Positions 22,196 to 50,050 of a DNA stretch of 64,000 nt are shown here, one piece after another. The notes beneath the pieces were generated by a model. The model worked only from the letters and a program-made list of their open reading frames with translations, searched no databases and was not told the DNA's origin. Origin of the DNA: Fragilaria crotonensis (taxonomy: Eukaryota > Bacillariophyta > Fragilariophyceae > Fragilariales > Fragilariaceae); the NCBI GenBank assembly GCA_022925895.1, contig JAKSYS010000147.1:1-64000 (forward strand). The letters are read 5' to 3'. A program made the translations under genes and the position numbers. Positions within the stretch are counted from its first letter, which is position 1, and the number at the start of each line of letters is the position of its first letter.

Positions 22196-24426
22196 TTAGT
22201 CGTCCATAGCTTCACACAGGTCGCCATCGCTTTCTTGGACAGCTTGCAGGTGCCCTTTGGGTACAGGATCGGCTTTCGCATCTTTTGATATCCACATGAC
22301 AGCAGCAGCGATGGCTCGCAATGATTGACGCTTTTCGCGGATGATGCGGAGAGAGCTCGTTAAAGACCTGTTGGATAGACGGAAGTCGTTGTCGACGTCA
22401 AACCAGGGGTTTTCCAACGCTTCAGCAGCGGTCAATCGCTGTGCGGGATCGGTAACCAGCAGACTCTTGATCAGGGATGTAGCCTCCTCCGATACCTCCG
22501 TCCAATCTTCTTCAAAGAATTCATACTCTCCGGAACGAATTTTTCTGAAAAGATCTTGTTGCTTGTCTTCCATGAACGGCGGATAGCCAACCAACAGTAC
22601 ATAAGTGATTACCCCTACTGACCACATATCTGCTTTCGTGTCATGAGGAATGTTCTTGAGAATTTCCGGGGCAACATACGTCGGAGTACCACACCGAGTT
22701 GTGAGGGATTGCGGAGTATGAACACGACGGGAGAAACCAAAATCTGCGATCTTGATGCTAGCATCGTCGTCCTTGCTCTGCAGTGAAGAAAACGTGAGCC
22801 TATGAGTGGGAGAAAACAATAATCTCCAATAGTGTCGTCACAACTCACTGTAAGTAGAAGATTCTGCGGCTTGAGGTCTCTATGCGCCACACCTTGGGCG
22901 TGAAGGAACTTAACAGCCTTCAAAGGATTCGCACCAAATCTCGCGCATCTTTTTCCGTGTAATGGTTTCTCTCCACAATTCGGTCAAAGACGTCACCTCC
23001 TCATGTATTCCATCACCATGTAGAAGTAATCCTTTTCCTCGAAAAATCCAAGAGTTGCACAACATGGCGGTTGGCCAGTGATTGCAAAATAGCGACTTCG
23101 TTCATGACTGCCTCGTCGTCGCTTGGTTTCAAACCCTCTCGATTAATAATCTTGACCGCAAAGACTTGCTGTGTCTCTTTGTGAACACACTCCCACACAG
23201 TGGCAAACGAACCCGTTCGCACTTTCTTCGTCAGGTCGTAAACATCGCGGAAGGCGGGATGGAGTGTCGTCTTCTTGATCGCTGCAGCGTCCTCCTTATC
23301 CCAAGTTTTCTGTTGCTGTGAAAAGGTGACATTGTCAGGATTCCAGAAAGTGGCTGTCGTCGCCCAGTGAACTGCTCGCACGGCAGACTTGAGCTTTCGC
23401 CTGGCGTTGAATTTACGTAGCTCGGCCAAGGCTTTGTCCAAAGAACGAGAACTCAAGGCATCGTCTTCGGCTTGTATCCAATTGCAGTCCAGCGCTTGTT
23501 CGGCAGTCCAGCGGTGCTCGGGGTTGACACACATGAGGGAAGAGATGAGCACCTTGGCATCAATCGATACGTGCTCCCAGTACGATTCATGAAAGATATA
23601 ATCAGCAGCGCGGATCTTGCGAAAGAGACCACGGTGGTGTTCGTCCTGGTAAGGAGGATAGCCTCCAATTAGCAAGAATAATAAGACACCAACGGACCAC
23701 ATATCAATTGGTTCGCGGTAACTCGAGCCAACCAGGATTTCAGGAGCCACGAATGCAGGTGTACCGCAGCGAGTTCGTAACCCCTCAAGAGGAATCTTCC
23801 TGGAAAATCCGAAATCGGCGACAAGGATGTTTGAGTCAACCTCTTCATATTTGAGAAGCAGGTTCTCGGGCTTTAAATCACGGTGAACATATCCTCGCTT
23901 GTGCATATCACGCATCGTTTCCAGCAAGCGCCTGGCCAATTTCCGGGCATCCTCTTCGGAGTAGGTAGTCCGGCGGGCTAAGCGATCAAAGACATCACCA
24001 CCCTTCGCAAAGACTTGCACAATGTGGAATTCATCTGGTTGAACGAAAAAGTCAATTAATGATACAATTCCTTGTACATCACTCAAGTCCTTCAGGACGT
24101 CCACCTCTCGAAACACCCCATCGTCATCAGACTTCTTCTTCAGTTTGCTTCAAGGGAAGGAATTGCGTGAGAACATAGTATGCATTATGCATACAACTTA
24201 TCGGCAGGATACGAGGTCGAGAGTTCCGAGTAGCGATACGAGATACGTACCGACGATCGATAACTTTCACTGCGAATTCCTCTCCAGATTCTTTGTGTCG
24301 CGTCACATAGACAGTTCCGTATGAACCAGAACGCAGTCGCTTGTCGATGGTGTAAAAATCATTGAATTGCAATGCTTCACTTAAATCCCCTTGCAACGTT
24401 ACTCCAGGAATGAAGTTATACGCCAT
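22196..24426 (-). CDS. Tandem protein kinase with two CAMK-like domains
   Basis: One polypeptide with two Ser/Thr kinase domains. I take the ATG at 24426 (MAYNFIPGVTLQ). Domain 1 has the P-loop SGSYGTVYVTRHKESGEEFA, AVKVID, YVHRDLKPENLLL, VADFGFSR and APEILVG. Domain 2 has RTGSFATVWECVHKETQQVF, AVKIIN, VAHRDLKPQNLLL, IADFGFSR and APEILKN. Introns are 24148-24250 (103 nt, interrupting DRR-KLKKKSDDDG) and 22778-22848 (71 nt, between QNLLLT and SKDDDA). The frame slips about three times in the N-lobe of domain 2, for example at the A run 23042-23046; each looks like a lost homopolymer base. There are no EF hands. Both domains keep Lys, HRD and DFG. It ends 116 bp from the stop of the convergent membrane-protein gene. 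Confidence 0.85.
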
Positions 24427-38514: not shown

Positions 38515-39110
38515 CATTGCCAGTGATGTTGAAAGCCCTTGATGTATGGAAGCTCTTCGGAGTTAGTATTCAATCATCTTGATTATGACATGAGTTGCAT
38601 TGGAGCCGACACAGCCAGAAATTCCAGCAATTATGTTGTGCAGCTTCCTCACTAGCTAGCTACTACTAATTGGAGCAACCACATACTTGTTGAATAGTTT
38701 GGTGCTACCGAACAACAGAAATGCATGTAAGAAAACACGGACGACTTCCCTTCCTCGCTGATTCCTGTCTTTTCAGACAAGTCATCAAGGAATCCTCCTC
38801 CTCCTCGTCGTTCCAGCAAGAAAATGCAGAACACAAAGAATTAAGAGCGCAAGTGGAGCTGCTGGTTGTCCGATATCATCGACAGCACCTTCGCTTCACC
38901 TTCTTCTGAATAACGCACACATCCTCTTGAACCGCAGCCATTGCCACTAGTTCCTGGAAAGAATTTGTATGGCATTCGGAAGCGACAACAAAAGATACGG
39001 TTGAATCTGTCATTGTCCAAAAGTGGACAATTGACATACTTAATGTACCTGGCTGGTTGTTGCAACAAAAACAATTGATTGAGAGGAGAATTCAGTGATG
39101 GCAAGATTGC
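38515..39110 (-). pseudogene. Relic of a PIF/Harbinger transposase (N-terminal half)
   Basis: The - frames show YIKYVNCPLLDNDRFNRIFC and CCRFRMPYKFFPG, matching the intact transposase's YYIKNPPLDDDRFLRKFRRR and RVPHSYF. Towards 38520-38640 they show the GSNATHVI catalytic-region relic. It overlaps in content with the relic at 34.2-35.1 kb over the GSNATH segment, so the two are either separate copies or the product of a duplication around the PIF insertion. Confidence 0.72.
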
Positions 39111-40519
39111 AGAATGTTACATAGTCTTGTTACTTAGCATTTCCATGAAAAGTGCGGTAGCAAGAGGAATCTCCTGCCAGCCAGTGATGGGGTTAGTAAC
39201 ATAATGACATGTTTTTCCTTTCATTTTTTGTAGTTGCTGTGCTCTTCAATTTGTAGTTTCATCATGTTCTTCTTGCTTGTCAGCAGGACCGCCTTCCTGT
39301 AGTAACAGCAAGGAATTTGCAAAGAGAACCCAGCCCCTTGACGACACCTGCCTTCCACTTCTTCATCGGAATGCTTCTGGAGTTCGCGCACTCGTTGAAT
39401 GTCAAATTTGCCATTAACAATGCAGCTCGACAACGTTTGGGGGGACGATGGTTGATGGTACCATTTATACTTGCGACGGGGCAACTGTTGTTCTGGTTCT
39501 TGATTTCAGAGCAACTGACAATAATTGTGAGATGAGTGTGCTTTTGATTTGATAAGTGACAATTGTGAAGATACGTTTCGATTTGATGAGATTGACGATT
39601 CTGAAAATGCAATGCGTTGATGCGGAAAGGTATTTTTGGTGATCCATTTGACTCGTCAAGCAATCTCACTCGAGGATATTTTCAAAAACGTTGGAGCTCA
39701 ACTTTGAACTTTGAGAAGCATTTTTCCGCCTTTTTTATTAACAAGATAAGGAAAAGGCTCATAGTACTTCAAAAATGCCTCGTGCTTCTCCTATGCATAT
39801 GTCATACATGTCACTTGTAGCTATAGTTGACATTTGACATGGTGCGAACCTTTACAGTACAGTACCATGTACTCGGAGTACAGCAGTACTGTAGTCAAGT
39901 GCCCGACTTGAGTACCCTCCACTAGTACCGTAGTAGTAGGCCCGTGGCACGAAGGCATGCGAGTATGCATAAACAGTGTACACGTGAAAATCGTGTGAGA
40001 TCTGACCTTAGACCTTAGACTACCGGTAGCTATTTCTGGTGATGACGTAAACCAGTGAACATATATATAGTTATATACATGGCATATAGAGACGCAATTC
40101 AAATGGCGACGGTTAAGATCTTTCCCACCGATTCTTGGCTGTTTTGGCCGAGTTCGTTTTGACAAAAACGTGACTTACTACCACGATCGCGTGCAAGATT
40201 CTTTCGGATTGCATCATCCCATCGCCAGTTACCGTTTCTTTTGGCCGAAGACACTGTTTGGCGCCAAGTCAAAACTTGACTTTCACGCTTCACTTGATGG
40301 ATTGTAACGTCCTCTTCACTCTGCCATTGTCAGTAATCTCGTCCTTTCCTGTTGTCGTTATCAAACAACCCAACAACCCAGTATATGACATCGGTAATCA
40401 CTCTATTGATTTTTGTGGCCTTGTTGATCTGATTTGATAGACGCGTTTAATTTGGTACTGAGTACCGTGATAGCGACTTCAGATTGAAGCTTGCTGGATA
40501 GAAGCCTTAGAAATTGACC
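39111..40519. other. Spacer and repeat debris
   Basis: 39.1-39.8 kb is AT-rich with broken frames and may extend the transposase relic. 39.85-40.0 kb returns to GTAC-rich spacer texture (gtacagtaccatgtact). 40.0-40.5 kb should hold the promoter of the F-box/kinase gene; no motif stands out. Confidence 0.35.
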
Positions 40520-43500
40520 ATGAACCATGGGAACTCGTCACCATCTGAGTTCGAGTTCGATTCGTATGCTACTGCCTGGGATTCGAGCTCAGGTCCATCT
40601 CGCAAAGTCCGACGTCAATACGGAAAAAGCAACAGCCAAAGAAGAAAGCTCGCAATGCTCTTCGTAACGAAAGGACGTTAAAGCGAACGGAATCAGACCC
40701 TGTATGCTTGGAGGAGCGGTCTCTCACCCGACTTTAGAAGGATCATCGTCGTCATCCTTGTCAACGGAACTCAGATTAGCATTGCCCTCGAAATCAGGCC
40801 TTCACGTTCGATCAAAATCGGTCACCGGCACTTCGTCTTCAACAACACGGCACCAGATGCGGAGGAACAATTCCTTGTCTATCGTTAACAGATCATCTGG
40901 CCTCCGCCATTCTTCATCTTCAAGCTTGAATTCAGATTTTGAACATGAGTACGAGAACTTTGACCCCAACATTATTACACAAGAGCTTCTTGGCGGATCC
41001 GAATATGACTCCCCTTCAGTGAAGCCGTGTAAATTACGACCACCTCTCAGTACAATGGCCGAGCATCCGAAGGCTCGACCTCGTAAGATACGCGCCTTGA
41101 GTGATCTCGGTGATCTCCAACGATCGTTCTCGGATTTAGCAAGAGAAGCCGGTGCTGCCACTGGTTGGGACGACGCTACGCCCAAAAGTTCTACATCCAT
41201 GGCTTTTGACTTTGTCGACTTCGAAACATCGTCCCCGCATGGCAGTATCGCCACGATGAGCTCACGGAAACGAAGTGTTAGCGACTCGACCGGGGTTGAT
41301 GAGTTCCTTAGTGATTTAAGTTCGCAAGGCGGCGGCGGGATCCGAGGTTCCAAATCCAGGTCAAGGATTTATTCTCCTGAATTTGCGCCCATGCTGGAAA
41401 ATGTCAGGTCACTGAACGATGCGCAATCCCAAGACATCATGCAAAGACAGCAACCTGCTATCGATAGCGACGATGGTGGGGAGAATGATTCAGATGACGG
41501 AATGGTCTCTGTTGAAAAGTCCTTCGACTGCGATGATTTCATGAACGACGAGGACATTCCCAGTGGTGTCGCAAGACCTCCGCAGAGATTTCGCCGTTCC
41601 TCGTCAGACAATTTTGAAGAATTCGTCTTTGGTGCTGCAAGTGCTCTTGGAGACAAAGTATTATCTGACGAAGGCATCTTGCAGTCGATGCCGTCAGTCG
41701 AGGACCTAAAATTTATCATTAAGAACCTGAGAAAGGCAAAGAAAGGCGCTGGTACCACATTTGGCATGATCACAACTTGGACCGTGTCATTACCACGGCA
41801 GTGGACATCAGACCGTCGAGCCAAAGTGTTGCATTGGTCAACGCAAGAGCTTGGATTCTCCATGCGGACCGGGGGGCCCTGCGTCGTATTTCTCAACGTA
41901 GCTGCGTCGAAAGCACCAACTCTTCTGTCGCTCTTGGAATCCGCGTTGACTTGTTATCGAAACCAACATCCCGGTTTTGTCAATTCCAAGCCACTCGGTG
42001 GGCAGCCCATTATCTTTCAACGAGCGTCGCCACCGCCTTCACTGCCTCAAACTCTGCAGCCACGTGGCTTCCGCGAGCCTTCCGGAGTTGATTCTCGCGA
42101 CGATGAGCTCGTTCATGCACTTAACAGCCTTCGACTTTCCTCTGCTGATCAATCTCAGGTAGAAGGCGCAAGTAGATTGGTCCGCATGGTCACGGTCGAC
42201 CCGAACAATGACTTTCACGCAGCCGCTCCACCTCGTCATTCTGGGGAGTATTTTATGGGCAGCACAGACCTTGTCAGTCATATACATGTCACAAGTCCGC
42301 GAATTGCTCGGGGGCGGCTTTCTTCCAACGCCCGCCCTTCGACTTCTAGACGCCCAAGATTGCTGGTGGAAACAGACCTCCGATCGAATACTGTAACGTC
42401 ACCCTTTGTTAGACGCTCAAAAGCAACACTTTTCCAACATCCTGTCGAGGGCTTGGAGACTCCTCACATGACGAGAAGAGCCTGCTGGGAAAGACCGAAG
42501 AGCGGTAGGGATTGGGGAGCGTCTGCCCGCTGCTGCAGTGGCATTCTTCGTGAGCTGACTGGGCGGTTTGAATGTGCACTTGCGGGGGAAAGTGGGCAAC
42601 TGGACGACGGTTCACCATTAGTGCACGAAGCAAAGCTCGTCCCTGTTTCCTTGGGCATTAACCGTAGCATGGAAGAAGTCGACGAAGAAACGGATCTGGA
42701 ATCGTCAGCGAGCAAGAGTGAAATACAGGATGCATTTGACGATTATGACTTCAATCTTATGGCGCCAGCCCAGGAAGGAGTCGCCGAAGTAGCATCGGGG
42801 CTGATGCTTTTGCAGATCTAAATCTTAACGAAACAGACGGACTGAATGACGAGGAGAGAGTAATGCGTCGTCGACTTGAGTCGATGGCGAAGCACAAGAG
42901 GGTTTCGCTGTGTGCAAGCGGACTTCTTGCCCGCAAGTCGACTTGTTCTTCTCGAAGCTCCTACTTCTCAAATCTCCCGAGGTTTTCAGTGGTGAGATCT
43001 ACTCTAACTCTGACGGACAGCAACCGGTTCTCGTTTCTTCCGCTACAAGTGACATCAGATATGACGAACGTTGATTCTATTTTCAACGAAAATGTGCTTT
43101 CGGATCCCAAAGTCCTGGTGACCATCTTTTCCTTTCTGAACGAGCACGAGTTGCTCTGCCGGACATCTCCTGTTTGCACGCAATGGGCTGACGCGAGTAC
43201 AGAAGCGCACGCGAATTTAATGCTAATGAGTGTCGGGTGCGCTGAGCCAGAGGATTGTGATGATGACCTTGACGACGATGCAGAGGAGTCTCTCAAAGCA
43301 GGATCTGTCATGACATCAATGGAACAGCCGTGGAAATACTTAGTCAACCAATACCCACACGCGTGCTTCCTGGCTGGTGGAGCATTCAAGAACGTTTACA
43401 AGGTTTTCAACGCATCCACTCAATCATACGAGGCCCTGTCGGTGATGTAAGTGCCAGATGAATCTGTCGCCTTTGAAATCTTTTGCTATTGCTTACTCGT

Positions 43501-44870
43501 TTTCTGCTCTAGGGACATCGAGATGATTGAAAGCACCGGAAACAAACACGTTGTCGGAGCCGAACTCGCAGTTTCTGCGATGCTTTCGTCACTAGTTCGC
43601 CGAAATATATGTCCGAATTTCGTTGTCACACGAAGAGTCTTCACATGTCCTTACGAACCGCCGAAGACATTTTGGGGATCAGAAGATGACAGGAAACCTA
43701 GAGGTGGACAATACAGTCCGCGGCGATGTCAAGGTCGAAAGCCACGCGAACCCAGCGCGAAACATCGTTCGAGGTATCAATACATAAGAATGGAACTGTG
43801 TGCTGAAGGCGATGCCGAAGAATACTTAAAGCGGCAACCCGATGAATCTATCTCCCCCGAGGTGGCCAGAAATTTGATCTTTCAAGTCGCGTTTGCGATG
43901 CATGCAGCAGCAGATCGTTTTTCCCTGAAGCATTACGACTTGAAATTGCTTAACATTTTTCTCCAAAAGGTATCAGGAATTGACGCCGAGCTGACAACGC
44001 TTAGGTACGGTTTGGGATCACACATCTTCGCACTTGAGATGCCAACTGCCTCTGCAATTATTGCAAAGGTCGCTGATTATGGCACAGCGAATGTTCAAGC
44101 TGAATCCAATGGACAGCCTGCAACGATTGGGCAGTTCACTACTCTCGAAAACACACCGCCAGAGTTTATGATTCTTGGTGATGCAGCGACGCAAGGTCAT
44201 GGTCATGATGCATTCGGTCTGGGCCTCTGCATGCTTCACCTTTTTACAGGGCACGCTCCGTACGAAGAGATACTTGCTGATGTAACGTGTCCATCTGGTT
44301 TGAAGGCCATACTCCAAGGTATCTGGGAAGATGATCTCTCCGAAGGTTACAGTGTGATCCGATCGGTTATTTTGGCGGACGTTTACAAAGATGAAGGAGG
44401 CGCTGTTATAGAGGGCGAGCCTGATGGTACGCTGTATGACACGTTTTACCGCTACCTTGTGTTGTTTGGTATCCCTGATAAGAAGTACAAGGAGAAGGCG
44501 CACGACCGAGTATGGAAGGCGATCGCATTTTCCTTGGAAGGGGAGGCAAAGGGCGTATGTACGGGAAACGCTCGCAGGCACAAGGGAGCAGATTTTGAGC
44601 AGTTTGAGGAGGATCAAAAGAAATACTCTTTGAGACATGGGACGAATTCTTTCATTTCTCGCGCTCGTGAAGGGCTCGAGAAAGTCTCTGGCGGGTTGGA
44701 ACTCCTCTTCACTCGTAGACTTCGATCCTGAGAGGCGGGCCACGGCTTGCGATGTTCTCAATTCCCAGTTTATGATTCCACTTCGAGAGGACCCTGCCAA
44801 GATGCGCACCATCACTGACAGCAACCCATCGAATCATGCCATCTCTTTCATGGCATATGCTACTAAATAG
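40520..44870 (+). CDS. F-box / protein-kinase fusion protein with long disordered N-terminus
   Basis: One gene read over several frame slips. ATG 40520 (MNHGNSSPSEFEFDSYATAW). About 760 Ser/Arg/Asp-rich residues follow, with one ordered island (EDLKFIIKNLRKAKKGAGTT to VVFLNVAASKAP). An F-box follows (LSDPKVLVTIFSFLNEHELL then CRTSPVCTQWADAS, about 43110-43200). Then comes a kinase domain: GGAFKNVYKVFNASTQSYEA, the intron 43447-43512 (66 nt, GTAAGT...CTCTAG, rejoining VM-DIEMIE), HYDLKLLNIFL with the catalytic-loop Asp, VADYGTANV in place of DFG, and PPEF. The C-lobe ends LVDFDPERRATACDVLNSQF, with stop at 44870. Slips include the A run 40624-40628 and the G run 42797-42800. The F-box should bind Skp1. 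The kinase keeps the HxD loop and the metal-binding Asp, so activity is plausible. Confidence 0.8.
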
Positions 44871-44950
44871 ATTACGAAGAGCCTCACTTGCTCTATTCAA
44901 TCATGTTAGGCTAAATCTTAAGGCATGATTAGAATGAACACGCAAGCAGC

Positions 44951-45150
44951 CAATGAGGTTTTTTACAAGTGTCCTGGACAGTTGTGCAATGTCTCGTGCA
45001 AGTAAGCATCATAGTCCGGACAAAACACTTTCTTTCTCTCCGGGCGCAGCCTATGAGCTTTTCGACAAGCATCCTGGACAGTTATGCAATGTCTCGTGCA
45101 AGTAAGCATCGCAGTCCGGACAAAACACATTCTTACACTCCGGGCATTGA
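44951..45150. repeat. 100-bp tandem duplication of the p44 gene 3' end
   Basis: The last 100 bp of the TFIIH p44 gene (45051-45150, including its stop) are repeated with exact 100-bp spacing at 44951-45050, with about 12-15 differences. The copy lies downstream of the stop and still encodes a recognisable Zn-finger end (VFCPDYDAYLHETLHNCPGH). Confidence 0.88.
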
Positions 45151-46490
45151 AATCGAAGGATTTCATCTCCAACAGTATCCGATAAAGGGGTCTTCGCCTT
45201 TTTGTCATTGTTTGAGCTGATGTCGGCTATGATAATGGTTCCGATCATTTTCAAGCATGCGAAGCAACATCGATCGAAGTCCTCTGACTCAGCCACAAGG
45301 GAGTCGTTCATGGTAAAGACTTGAATGTTTCCACTCGCGAGATGGTTCAACGATTGGGTCCTACCGAGTTCTGCCTCTATAGGAACTTCCGCGAAGGGAG
45401 GCACGGGGAATAAGTGGTGGAAGGAACGTGCCAAGTGTGGCGCCAACACAAGTTTAAGTCCGCACACGACACAATCTGTCGGCAATTCCGATTGTTTCGC
45501 TTGACATTGAGGACATACAAAGGCAGTGCGGGCCAAAATTTTGGTATCGCGGGTGGCGTGAACCAAGGTGGGAACGTCACCGGAGGCCCTCGTAGGAAAG
45601 CCCATTCGAACCATCTCACAGCCACCGGCGCCGCCGGATCCAAAGGAACTCGGAATGGCCGGCGGTGGAGTACATTGACCGCCAAGAAGCCAATCTCGAA
45701 AGTGACCCTTATCCAAGCAAACTCCCATGACACCACTCGTTTCTTCGGCCAATTTGCGGCAGACGTGAAGCTCGGCTGATAGAGCGAAAGAAGAAACTCG
45801 AACGTTGGCCGCTTGCAGGCGAGGGAGAGTTTCTGTCAAAATATTGCCAGGATCGCAAGTGGATAGTGCACCGAAGAGCACCACAATTTCTCTGGATCCG
45901 TGACGAGGTTGGTGGCCAAGAGAGCGACCTGCCACTTCGAGACCATTCTGAAGAGAGAATTCTCCACCCTTACTTGGGTGTTCCGATGCCGCTAGGACTC
46001 CAAACGACTCCAGAGCCACCTTGTGGGCCTTCGAATTGGACGAGAGTTGCGATAGGATCTCTGCCTCTCCATCTCTCAAGATCACGAATCCCAAGTGAGA
46101 GAGGGGATTCTGGTCGAAGTATTCGTGAACGAACTCTTGCAACAAATTGAGCGTAACTTCCAATCTCGAGCCTGGTGGAATGACAGGATCTTTCGTTCTC
46201 ATCCAACGACTCGCATCAATGACTATGTACATGTAACGAATCATATCGCGCACAACTCGCTTCCGTTTCTGGGAATAGTCTGTCTGTTCCAGACGTTTGC
46301 GACGACGTCGAATGGCTTGCGCAGCAGATTCTGACGCCGTGGAGATGATGTTTCCCTCTTCATCTTCTTGAACGGCAGTGTCCCATGTCGCTTCTCCGGA
46401 CTCTTCCCAACGATGCTGGGCTGGTCCGCCTTCTGTCGAAGCCACAGCGACGGCAGAGATGCTCATTGGCATTTGTGATTGCAGGGACAT
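45051..46490 (-). CDS. TFIIH subunit p44 (Ssl1/GTF2H2)
   Basis: An intact 479-residue frame, the usual length for p44. The N-terminus contains the family motif ATWDTAVQEDEEGNI. A von Willebrand A-like Ssl1 domain follows (RDMIRYMYIVIDASRWMRTK, then LSHLGFVILRDGEAEILSQL, then SREIVVLFGALSTCDPGNI). The C4 zinc cluster is FVCPQCQAKQSELPTDCVVC. The C-terminal RING-like finger runs from FDRCCFACLKMIG to FQCPECKNVFCPDCDAYLHE and HNCPGCL. p44 stimulates the XPD helicase within the general transcription and repair factor TFIIH. No frame slip is present. It converges with the F-box/kinase gene. Confidence 0.95.
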   Translation of the reverse strand: MSLQSQMPMSISAVAVASTEGGPAQHRWEESGEATWDTAVQEDEEGNIISTASESAAQAIRRRRKRLEQTDYSQKRKRVVRDMIRYMYIVIDASRWMRTKDPVIPPGSRLEVTLNLLQEFVHEYFDQNPLSHLGFVILRDGEAEILSQLSSNSKAHKVALESFGVLAASEHPSKGGEFSLQNGLEVAGRSLGHQPRHGSREIVVLFGALSTCDPGNILTETLPRLQAANVRVSSFALSAELHVCRKLAEETSGVMGVCLDKGHFRDWLLGGQCTPPPAIPSSFGSGGAGGCEMVRMGFPTRASGDVPTLVHATRDTKILARTAFVCPQCQAKQSELPTDCVVCGLKLVLAPHLARSFHHLFPVPPFAEVPIEAELGRTQSLNHLASGNIQVFTMNDSLVAESEDFDRCCFACLKMIGTIIIADISSNNDKKAKTPLSDTVGDEILRFQCPECKNVFCPDCDAYLHETLHNCPGCLSKSS

Positions 46491-47191
46491 GTTGGCGACA
46501 AGGCTGTATCAATGATGTTGTGTACTTCCTTAACACATCCATCGGCGGATCCGAAGGTACTGATGTCTGTTTCATTTCATCGAGCAAGTCAAATCATGAC
46601 ATCGGAGTCCACGGCACTCGGGTTGGGCTACTATAATGTTGTAGTCGAATAGATGGTACTGTAGTATGATACAGTACTGTGTACTGTCCCAATTGTTTGT
46701 ATGATAATCTGTATCCCCCTGGTACAATGTACCTGGTACCTGGTACTGTAGAGTAGCTGTAGAGCGATAGTGCGCCAAGCTAGTGAGCATACTTGGTCTA
46801 CCGGTAGTACAGTATGTCATATGTGACATATGTGGGTTCCGCCGACATCGCACGTAAGGAACGTCGAATGGACACGAATGATTACAAGTACTTGTACCTG
46901 GTAGAATGTACAGTACTTGTAAAGGTATTCTACTCGAGTACAAGTACAAGTACTGGGAGCGGAGACCGGAGGCCGGAGGCCCAGTACGATAACCACACCA
47001 TTTCCGTAGTCTGCTTTACAACAGTATTCTGTAAACTGTACGCATTTTCGTACCAGTAGCACGTACTGCAGACCACATACGATCAGTACTCCAGTACTCA
47101 TTAGTACAGTACACGGTGCACGATACTTCAGTACTCGAATTTGGAAGAGAAGCATAAAGTTTGAAGTGTGACGCCAAAAAAAAAGATCTCC
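46491..47191. other. Divergent promoter spacer, GTAC-rich
   Basis: This spacer separates the divergent p44 and SGT1 genes. No gene is seen. It has the densest GTAC texture in the window: ggtacctggtactgtag near 46734, gtcatatgtgacatatg near 46816, a run of gtacaagtacaagtact near 46938, and several agtactccagtactc words at 47085-47140. Confidence 0.5.
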
Positions 47192-48466
47192 ATGGATTCA
47201 GCAGATGAGATCTTGTCAACCGAGGCCTCTCTGGCTATCGGGGACTCTTACTTCATCGATGAAGACTACGAGAGTGCTGTCAATGCATACGCTGTTGCGC
47301 TTTCCACGTACCATGGCAACGAAGGAGGCGAACGAGGGAGTGTCACACAGTTTCGAGTCCTGTCCCACAAGGCCGCCGCGCTTTTACGACTGGATCGCTA
47401 CGACGAAGCAGTGCATGATGGCAAACTCGCGTTGGCTGGATTTGTACCAGGATTGAGAGAAGGGGAAACGGAAGCATGCTATCACCGAGTGGGAGTCGCG
47501 CTCTTTCGACTCGAACGATACGACGAGGCACTAGCAATGTTGGAACAGGCCTCACAACTTGCATCTTTGAACCACAAGCGAGATACCAAAACCAAGCACG
47601 ACGAATATATTCAACGTTGCAAGGACGCCAAGCTGCATCAAGATGTGCATATGGTTGAGCCTGAAGATTCAGACATGGTCATTGTTGAAGAAATTGAACA
47701 GAAAGCACCGGCCCAATCGTTCAGTTCACCTACAGTCGCTACTATTACAACTTCTAAAATCCAGAAACCATCCATGCCCAAATATCAATACTACCAGAAC
47801 GACAAAGTCATGACAATTGCAATTCTTGAACCCAACATGCGGAATGAGGATCTTCAAGTCACTTTTGGAACGAAACGGTTGACTGTCATTGTCAAAAAGC
47901 AGGGTTTCGACTTTACAGTCATTTGTGGAAAGCTCTTTGACAAGGTTGACACTCAAAAATGCAAAGTGGTCATCAAGAATGATAAATTACTCATAAAACT
48001 TCAGAAAGCCGACCCTCATGACTGGCACGAACTGTTTAGCAAACGATTGAACGACGACGATGATGATGACGACGACGACGATGACACCAGGAAGAAGAAG
48101 AAACCAACGACTGCGATCGCCCCGGACGAAGTTCCAATCGTTCAACCGGGCAAAAAGACTGTCCCTCGACCGTATTCATCTCATCGTGACTGGGATGCCA
48201 TTGAACGGAATCTGAAGGAACAAGAGAAGCAAGAAAAGCCGCAGGGAGAGGAGGCCATGAATGCTCTCTTTCAACAGATTTATGCCAAGGCCGATCCTGA
48301 CACGCAGCGCGCCATGATTAAATCCTATCAGACATCAGGAGGAACAGTCTTGTCCACTAATTGGGGAGAGGTTAAGGAAAAGGATTACGAGAAGGAACGA
48401 GAAGCACCGAAAGGGATGGAATGGAAGACCTGGGAGGGTGAAAAACTGGACAAGAAGAAACCGTAG
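47192..48466 (+). CDS. SGT1: SGT1 co-chaperone (TPR-CS-SGS)
   Basis: I choose ATG 47192 (MDSADEILSTEASLAIGDSY); the eight upstream codons start from GTG. There are three TPR units (residues about 10-125), a linker with acidic residues, a CS domain (PKYQYYQNDKVMTIAILEPN, then LTVIVKKQGFDFTVICGKLF, then KNDKLLIKLQKAD), an Asp run (11 D, a coding microsatellite), and a C-terminal SGS domain (MNALFQQIYAKADPDTQRAM, then MIKSYQTSGGTVLSTNW). SGT1 bridges HSP90 and SCF or immune-receptor clients and acts in kinetochore assembly. The frame is intact. It is convergent with the phosphatase gene, 118 bp between stops. Confidence 0.95.
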   Translation: MDSADEILSTEASLAIGDSYFIDEDYESAVNAYAVALSTYHGNEGGERGSVTQFRVLSHKAAALLRLDRYDEAVHDGKLALAGFVPGLREGETEACYHRVGVALFRLERYDEALAMLEQASQLASLNHKRDTKTKHDEYIQRCKDAKLHQDVHMVEPEDSDMVIVEEIEQKAPAQSFSSPTVATITTSKIQKPSMPKYQYYQNDKVMTIAILEPNMRNEDLQVTFGTKRLTVIVKKQGFDFTVICGKLFDKVDTQKCKVVIKNDKLLIKLQKADPHDWHELFSKRLNDDDDDDDDDDDTRKKKKPTTAIAPDEVPIVQPGKKTVPRPYSSHRDWDAIERNLKEQEKQEKPQGEEAMNALFQQIYAKADPDTQRAMIKSYQTSGGTVLSTNWGEVKEKDYEKEREAPKGMEWKTWEGEKLDKKKP

Positions 48467-48584
48467 GGTAGTGATTATCGTTTCCCTACTAGAGATGGCC
48501 CTATGGTTTGTTGCGTGCTTCCCTGCATCTCGGCTCAAATTGGGATGTCCTAATGACGCATGTAATATGAAATGTAACCGTTGT

Positions 48585-50050
48585 TTACGAACATTTGACT
48601 ACAATGCAGCTGGCGTCATCCACCTTCCCACCCAACCCATTGCTGTAATCAGGATCTCTATTGCGCATTGCAAGCTTGGCATAGGGAGTGTCGGCATTCG
48701 AGTCGAGTGACACTCGACGCGATTGTTCCACAATTTTTCGTGTTATCGTCGCCGCCCGAAATTTCCCATTGCTCAAACACAAGTCACAAATCTCAGTATC
48801 CTTCAAATTATCAAAAATTCCATCGGATCCCATGATGATAAAGTCACCCTTCTGTACTTTGATGGTTAACCTTGTTCCATCCTTGGGTCGATCAGGTGAG
48901 TCTTCAGACAGTTGATAGGGACAATCAAAGTAGTGCACAATTTCCTTGGTCTTGGCCACGATCTTGCCGTCCCGAACGACTACACATAGCGAGTCACCCA
49001 AATTCAAGACTGTCAAATCGCCGTCTTCACTTAGGGACCCTACCACCGCAGTGCTTGCACCGGTTGCAGCTTTGTCGGCATATTGGGCAGCCTCGGTGAG
49101 TATCTTGGTCATTTGTGGAAATGACAGAACTTCATCTTTCTTCACAAGAGCTTTCATTTCATTTGCCAACGTGAGGGAATAGAGGGGCACACCGTCAAGC
49201 TTTTCCGCACCCGACACTCCATCAAAAACTCCAAAGTTCCGTCCCTTGATAAATACCGCATCCTCACCACCCCATCTCACCTTGGCGGGATGGGGCAATA
49301 CATATGCGGCCACATCCACTTCAGGACTGACGGTGACGTGTCAATCGTCGTAGGTGTTGTGACGGGAGAAGGTTTGACCACGGCGGCATCCGCAACAACC
49401 GCTTTCGTCGTCGCAGGTGCAACGGTTCCGTTCGCGTCGTCGTCTTGGTTTGATCGAGTAAGTACTGATTTGATGACACCCAATCCGAAACGACGTTTCT
49501 TGGTCTCGACAGAAGGGGTATCTACTGGTGTACCATTTTCTGAATCTTCTTCCTCCTTCTTCCTTTTGTTGAAGAAACCAAACGGACCTCCACCTGAAGC
49601 TTCTTTTACGGTTTTTTGAGACGTGTCCTCTTGTGCCACTGCACTCGTTGCAGTGACAGTAGTTGTAGATTTCTGCGTCGTTGCCGAGACAGCGCCGGCT
49701 TGGTACTCTCGTTGCTTTGCCTGTGCCACTTTGCTTTGATTGGGATTGAGCGAGACAAGAGGGAAGGTAGGCGTCGGTGGCACCCACAGAGATTCGCCGG
49801 TTGCTCCATTGAAGTAATAAACGAGCCCAGTGTTTTCTTCGTCCAAATACGCAGCCCAATCACCCTCTTGTGCCAACGGTTCTACGAACAAACGCGACGT
49901 TGATGACGAATCCGTGTTTCGTGTTGTTGTTGTTGTTGTTGAGAAAGAGTGGAACAAACGGCCACTGCTCCCAACAAAGGCGTAACCTCCTCCGACCAGA
50001 TGGAGCATCAATGTCGTGGCGACGACGGACGTTGACGCAAAACACTTCAT
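48585..50050 (-). CDS. WW-domain / PTC7-type PP2C phosphatase, probably plastid-targeted
   Basis: ATG 50050 begins a signal peptide (STSVVATTLMLHLVGGGYAF) with an AF-VG site typical of diatom plastid targeting, then a Ser/Thr-rich transit segment. A WW-like domain follows (GDWAAYLDEENTGLVYYFNG then TGESLWVPP). After a low-complexity linker comes a PTC7-like PP2C/SpoIIE phosphatase domain (GGEDAVFIKGRNFGVFDGVS; ASTAVVGSLSEDGDLTVLNL, GDS; GDFIIMGSDGIFDNL; KVDDASCIVVK). The metal-binding Asp residues (GED, FDGV, SDGIFD, DDAS) are all present. The frame slips once between linker and phosphatase near 49300. Its likely role is dephosphorylating Ser/Thr proteins in the plastid; the substrate is unknown. 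Confidence 0.85.

Follow-up and report, generated by a model that had tools for sequence, protein, structure and literature searches.

The 64,000-nt stretch of DNA analysed here (the window; Fragilaria crotonensis contig JAKSYS010000147.1, contig 56 of the 881 contigs, 62.1 Mb, that make up the searched genome) carries on its forward strand a two-exon gene, read from the window sequence from ATG to TAG (Table 1). In it a serine-rich N-terminus is followed by an F-box, an acidic linker, the start of a protein kinase N-lobe, an intron and the rest of the kinase. The kinase is matched by Pfam Pkinase (E 6.1e-10, 39.4 bits, above the cut-off of 31.7 bits) and the F-box by F-box-like (E 7.9e-5, 22.8 bits). 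The 66-nt GT..AG intron preserves the reading frame, and relatives read the same motif through the junction. The original prediction, made from the letters alone, of an F-box and a kinase in one gene joined across this intron agrees with the Pfam matches, the intron and the relatives, and the joining of the two domains in a single protein is very highly probable. The HYD-x-LN loop and the DYG motif that it described are both present, as HYDLKLLN and within VADYGTAN; its P-loop is also there, but with an atypical sequence, LAGGAFKNV in the window. The relocated catalytic lysine, the folded N-terminal domain and the frame breaks described below go beyond that prediction.

At E <= 1e-3, 357 relatives were detected by single-sequence search and 409 by profile search; family counts and organisms are based on the best 120 relatives listed per search. 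Eight of the 120 listed in the profile search name an organism: Amphora coffeaeformis, Cylindrotheca closterium, Nitzschia inconspicua, Nitzschia sp. Nitz4, Fistulifera solaris, Mayamaea pseudoterrestris, Seminavis robusta and a Corethron (taxid 218684, C. pennatum). All are diatoms, as checked for two of them. Corethron is assigned to a class of its own, which makes an early origin of the family within diatoms probable. Among the 189 proteins retrieved, 42 are 1170-1578 residues long, while several shorter relatives, such as P0001, span only the region that follows the intron. Among the best 120 there are 48 members with 520 residues or more, of which 47 have a Pkinase match and 26 an F-box-like match at E <= 1e-3; in seven longer members the F-box lies at the corresponding place, in two of them above the Pfam cut-off. 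Five MMETSP proteins (P0040, P0124, P0139, P0144 and P0148; MMETSP being a set of marine eukaryote transcriptomes) have the aligned F-box segment followed by the kinase in a single open reading frame (ORF) marked complete, and because these ORFs span both domains, two separate genes appear unlikely. Relatives, transcriptome ORFs and structure models thus bear out the fusion as one conserved protein.

Table 1. Features of the F-box/kinase gene and the basis for each; positions are those of the window.
Feature	Position	Strand	Basis
Entire F-box/kinase gene, ATG to TAG; frame disrupted outside the core in the window haplotype	40520..44870	+	
Conserved N-terminal folded domain, W/RR/F/W/LGF pattern	41682..41975	+	Conservation; confident model in relative P0185
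Short conserved motif containing GRDWG	42483..42536	+	Conservation
Conserved motif R..S.AK..R.S; possible phosphorylation or docking site	42869..42916	+	Conservation
F-box	43091..43237	+	Pfam; family profile to Skp2/FBXL17/FBXL5; three helices in P0004 model
Acidic linker, F-box to kinase	43241..43288	+	Window sequence
Glycine-rich loop FLAGGAFKNVYKV	43367..43405	+	Family alignment
Lysine codon at third-glycine position (WNK-like place)	43388..43390	+	K in 111/111 aligned relatives
Serine codon at usual β3 lysine position	43439..43441	+	S 109, A 2 of 111
GT..AG intron, 66 nt	43447..43512	+	
Second exon, remaining kinase domain	43513..44870	+	Pfam; model of relative
αC helix segment with invariant Glu	43556..43585	+	Family alignment
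Catalytic loop KHYDLKLLN	43928..43954	+	
VADYGTAN, DFG equivalent	44069..44092	+	
Final kinase C-lobe segment, different frame in window haplotype	44718..44774	+	

A second copy of the gene lies on contig C330, 99.2% identical and colinear with the window over 9.9 kb, and has been taken as the other haplotype; a genome search with the F-box/kinase part gave no further copies at E <= 1e-3, a lower bound. Inside the gene eight indels of 1-2 bases and two substitutions distinguish the haplotypes. Bases are missing from the window copy at 40.64, 40.73, 42.77, 44.54, 44.56 and 44.71 kb, and from the C330 copy at 41.50 and 43.42 kb. Each copy is open where the other breaks, and joining the two gives a reading of 1430 residues. 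The single-protein gene model proposed for the window therefore stands for the F-box/kinase core, which is open in frame, but not outside it, where the window frame is broken. Six indels with bases missing from the window are what would be seen had this copy decayed into a pseudogene or been falsely joined from two genes. At all six, nevertheless, the other haplotype is open, its own breaks being at two different sites, and there are only two substitutions over the gene; the relative P0001 is 92% identical over the kinase exon, and the transcriptome ORFs preserve the domain order, so that decay or false joining is highly improbable. Since the other haplotype is open at the window's breaks and broken elsewhere, the sequences make assembly indels the likelier source of the frame shifts. 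Over window 39091-48997 the comparison with C330 is indel-rich, with 29 gap openings against 26 mismatches, which calls for caution with other broken-frame findings in this genome.

The most distinctive feature of the kinase is the position of its lysine. The β3 (VAIK) lysine is present in none of the 111 aligned relatives, which have Ser (109) or Ala (2) there, while in all 111 the third glycine of the glycine loop is replaced by lysine; in the P0004 model this residue, K97, begins β2. That alignment was limited to those of the 189 proteins in which 215 or more residues precede the last HYD string, which makes HYD a given there; a pattern match gave 109 of the 111, the two misses being resolved by alignment. 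Across the best 120 relatives the same column is filled in 59 cells, 50 of them K, because fragments beginning at the intron were misaligned. In all of these 120 the HRD Arg is Tyr (HYD), and the middle position of DFG is Y in 105 and F in 15. For the residue counts, control kinases were taken from loci L021-L050, of which 24 of 30 were kept (six had stops), and with L019 these make 25; 22 are usable, since L023 (misread), L024 and L050 are without one or both positions. Two of the 22, L041 and L042, are identical in the part shown.

The missing β3 lysine and the invariant Tyr in place of the HRD Arg could mean that the domain is a pseudokinase serving as a scaffold. The other catalytic residues, however, are invariant or nearly so: the eukaryotic protein kinase (ePK) fold is kept along with the catalytic Asp and Asn, the DFG Asp and the αC Glu (Pfam, alignments and model). 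The lysine, moreover, is fixed at the place used by WNK, which a 2007 paper (PMC1821047) describes as the only functional ePK family without the β3 lysine. Given this precedent, loss of the β3 lysine does not preclude activity; a scaffold is distinctly unlikely, and on the residues it has kept the kinase is probably active. The glycine-loop lysine would then hold ATP against the αC Glu.

The family and WNK both have their lysine in the glycine loop/β2, in the place of the third glycine, and none at β3, though the family has DYG or DFG where the genome's own WNK has DLG, HYD instead of HRD, and an F-box in front. Two kinase trees neither reject nor support a grouping of the family with WNK (approximately unbiased test p 0.461 and 0.439), and WNK is fifth of 14 in the family-profile ranking. 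Trees and ranking are based on 14-15 non-family kinases, the first tree including L023, a spurious antisense reading that the second tree and the ranking leave out. Among the kinases sampled the family forms a long separate branch which, with the relocated lysine, sets it apart from ePKs in general; nearest to it are CDK2 by fold and PKR/ULK by sequence. In the fold comparison 288 residues align within model residues 81-540, so the family kinase holds extra segments. An ordinary WNK is encoded separately in the genome, on two contigs (C194, locus L017; C462, locus L018).

The F-box scores above background, though under the gathering score, and a family profile of it matches Skp2 (E 2.3e-5), FBXL17 and FBXL5. 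The model of relative P0004 has the three helices of an F-box fold. Like the FBXW, FBXL and FBXO proteins, substrate receptors of the SCF (Skp1-cullin-F-box) ubiquitin ligases, the family thus has a three-helix F-box, matching Skp2, FBXL17 and FBXO22. Kelch, LRR and WD40 are given as frequent F-box partners in one paper (PMC4327156). None of these classical reader repeats was detected by Pfam in the proteins scanned, which have a kinase domain instead, and their F-box also differs in starting without Leu-Pro. The genome has five Skp1-like and eight cullin matches.

The order of an F-box followed by a catalytic module suggests an SCF receptor with the kinase as its reader. The F-box would bind Skp1 and dock the protein on a cullin-1 ligase; the kinase, aided by the N-terminal domain and motifs that are conserved, would replace the WD40, LRR or Kelch reader and bind targets, and the kinase would phosphorylate these before they, or the protein itself, are handed over for ubiquitination. 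Coupling of target phosphorylation to SCF ubiquitination in one molecule, as first proposed, is plausible. Coupling to SCF is marginally favoured, and the whole, comprising the anatomy, an active kinase and use of SCF, has about an even chance of being right. Several points weigh against it. The window copy by itself lacks a continuous open frame. The window F-box falls below the Pfam gathering cut-off of 24.3 bits, as do those of five of the seven further members, while 22 of the 48 members give no F-box-like match at E <= 1e-3. The Leu-Pro missing from the start of the F-box is normally a Skp1 contact, and with HYD in place of HRD, regulation through phosphorylation of the activation loop may differ.

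The absence of Leu-Pro, together with the fixed arrangement of F-box and kinase suggested by the P0004 model (predicted template-modelling score 0.90 over the two), leaves room for an F-box fold with a structural or activating role independent of SCF, packing against the kinase in the manner of cyclins or other N-terminal helices. The best VIA matches in the fold ranking are indeed cyclin- or p25-bound CDKs, but the order of kinases in such a ranking is no evidence of function, and among the matches of the F-box profile are Skp2 and other F-boxes whose structures were solved together with Skp1; a role of this kind seems quite unlikely.

Ahead of MTNVDS, the stretch just before the F-box, the two-haplotype composite has 848 residues with 15.3% Ser. 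The roughly 760 disordered Ser-rich residues originally described there are thus Ser-rich, but they number 848 and about 100 of them are conserved and modelled as folded. In the model of relative P0185 this domain lies mostly above a predicted local distance difference test score (pLDDT) of 90, while 678 of 978 residues are below 50; it has no convincing Pfam or PDB match. F-box proteins are often auto-ubiquitinated, and one possibility, the main rival to substrate coupling, is that here the F-box serves the kinase: the protein would be ubiquitinated itself and SCF would limit the abundance of the kinase, whose targets are not degraded. A long, mostly unstructured Ser-rich N-terminus in the same polypeptide and the lack of a classical reader would fit this, but the conserved N-terminal domain and motifs suggest partner binding. 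Although the data do not separate it from substrate coupling, self-limitation appears somewhat unlikely.

No description of an F-box/kinase family of this kind came up in text searches of open-licence PubMed Central papers, which, like Pfam, is consistent with the original statement that no standard family has this order. F-box and kinase are each well known; what is new is their combination and the fixed relocated lysine. In known SCF systems the kinase and the F-box protein are normally separate. If substrate coupling is correct, one protein found across diatoms would place the writing of a degradation mark and its reading in a single step and offer a simple system for testing this, and if the family is not derived from WNK it would be a second kinase lineage with a moved catalytic lysine. 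A bolder reading, which must be considered unlikely, is that diatoms independently reinvented the WNK lysine move in a kinase doubling as SCF substrate receptor, a single-chain phosphodegron writer that recruits its ligase, perhaps even one that senses ions in the manner of WNK through the emptied lysine pocket, the most speculative element of all.

Downstream of the gene, on the reverse strand at 45051-46508, lies an ORF encoding the TFIIH subunit Ssl1/p44 (Ssl1 E 1.9e-53, C1_4 E 6.1e-14). Two tandem 100-nt copies, 88% identical, occupy 44946-45145; since the TFIIH coding sequence reaches with its 3' end into the second of them, the first appears to be a duplicate of that gene end. Just past the TFIIH gene on the other haplotype, colinear with forward-strand window positions of about 47.1-48.5 kb, is an SGT1-like gene (L013) with TPR, CS (E 5.6e-7) and SGS (E 5.3e-31) matches. 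SGT1 is a co-chaperone of Skp1/SCF, and its nearness to the F-box gene is curious and probably due to chance. Two other kinase-domain matches lie on the same contig, on the reverse strand at window 22400-24140.
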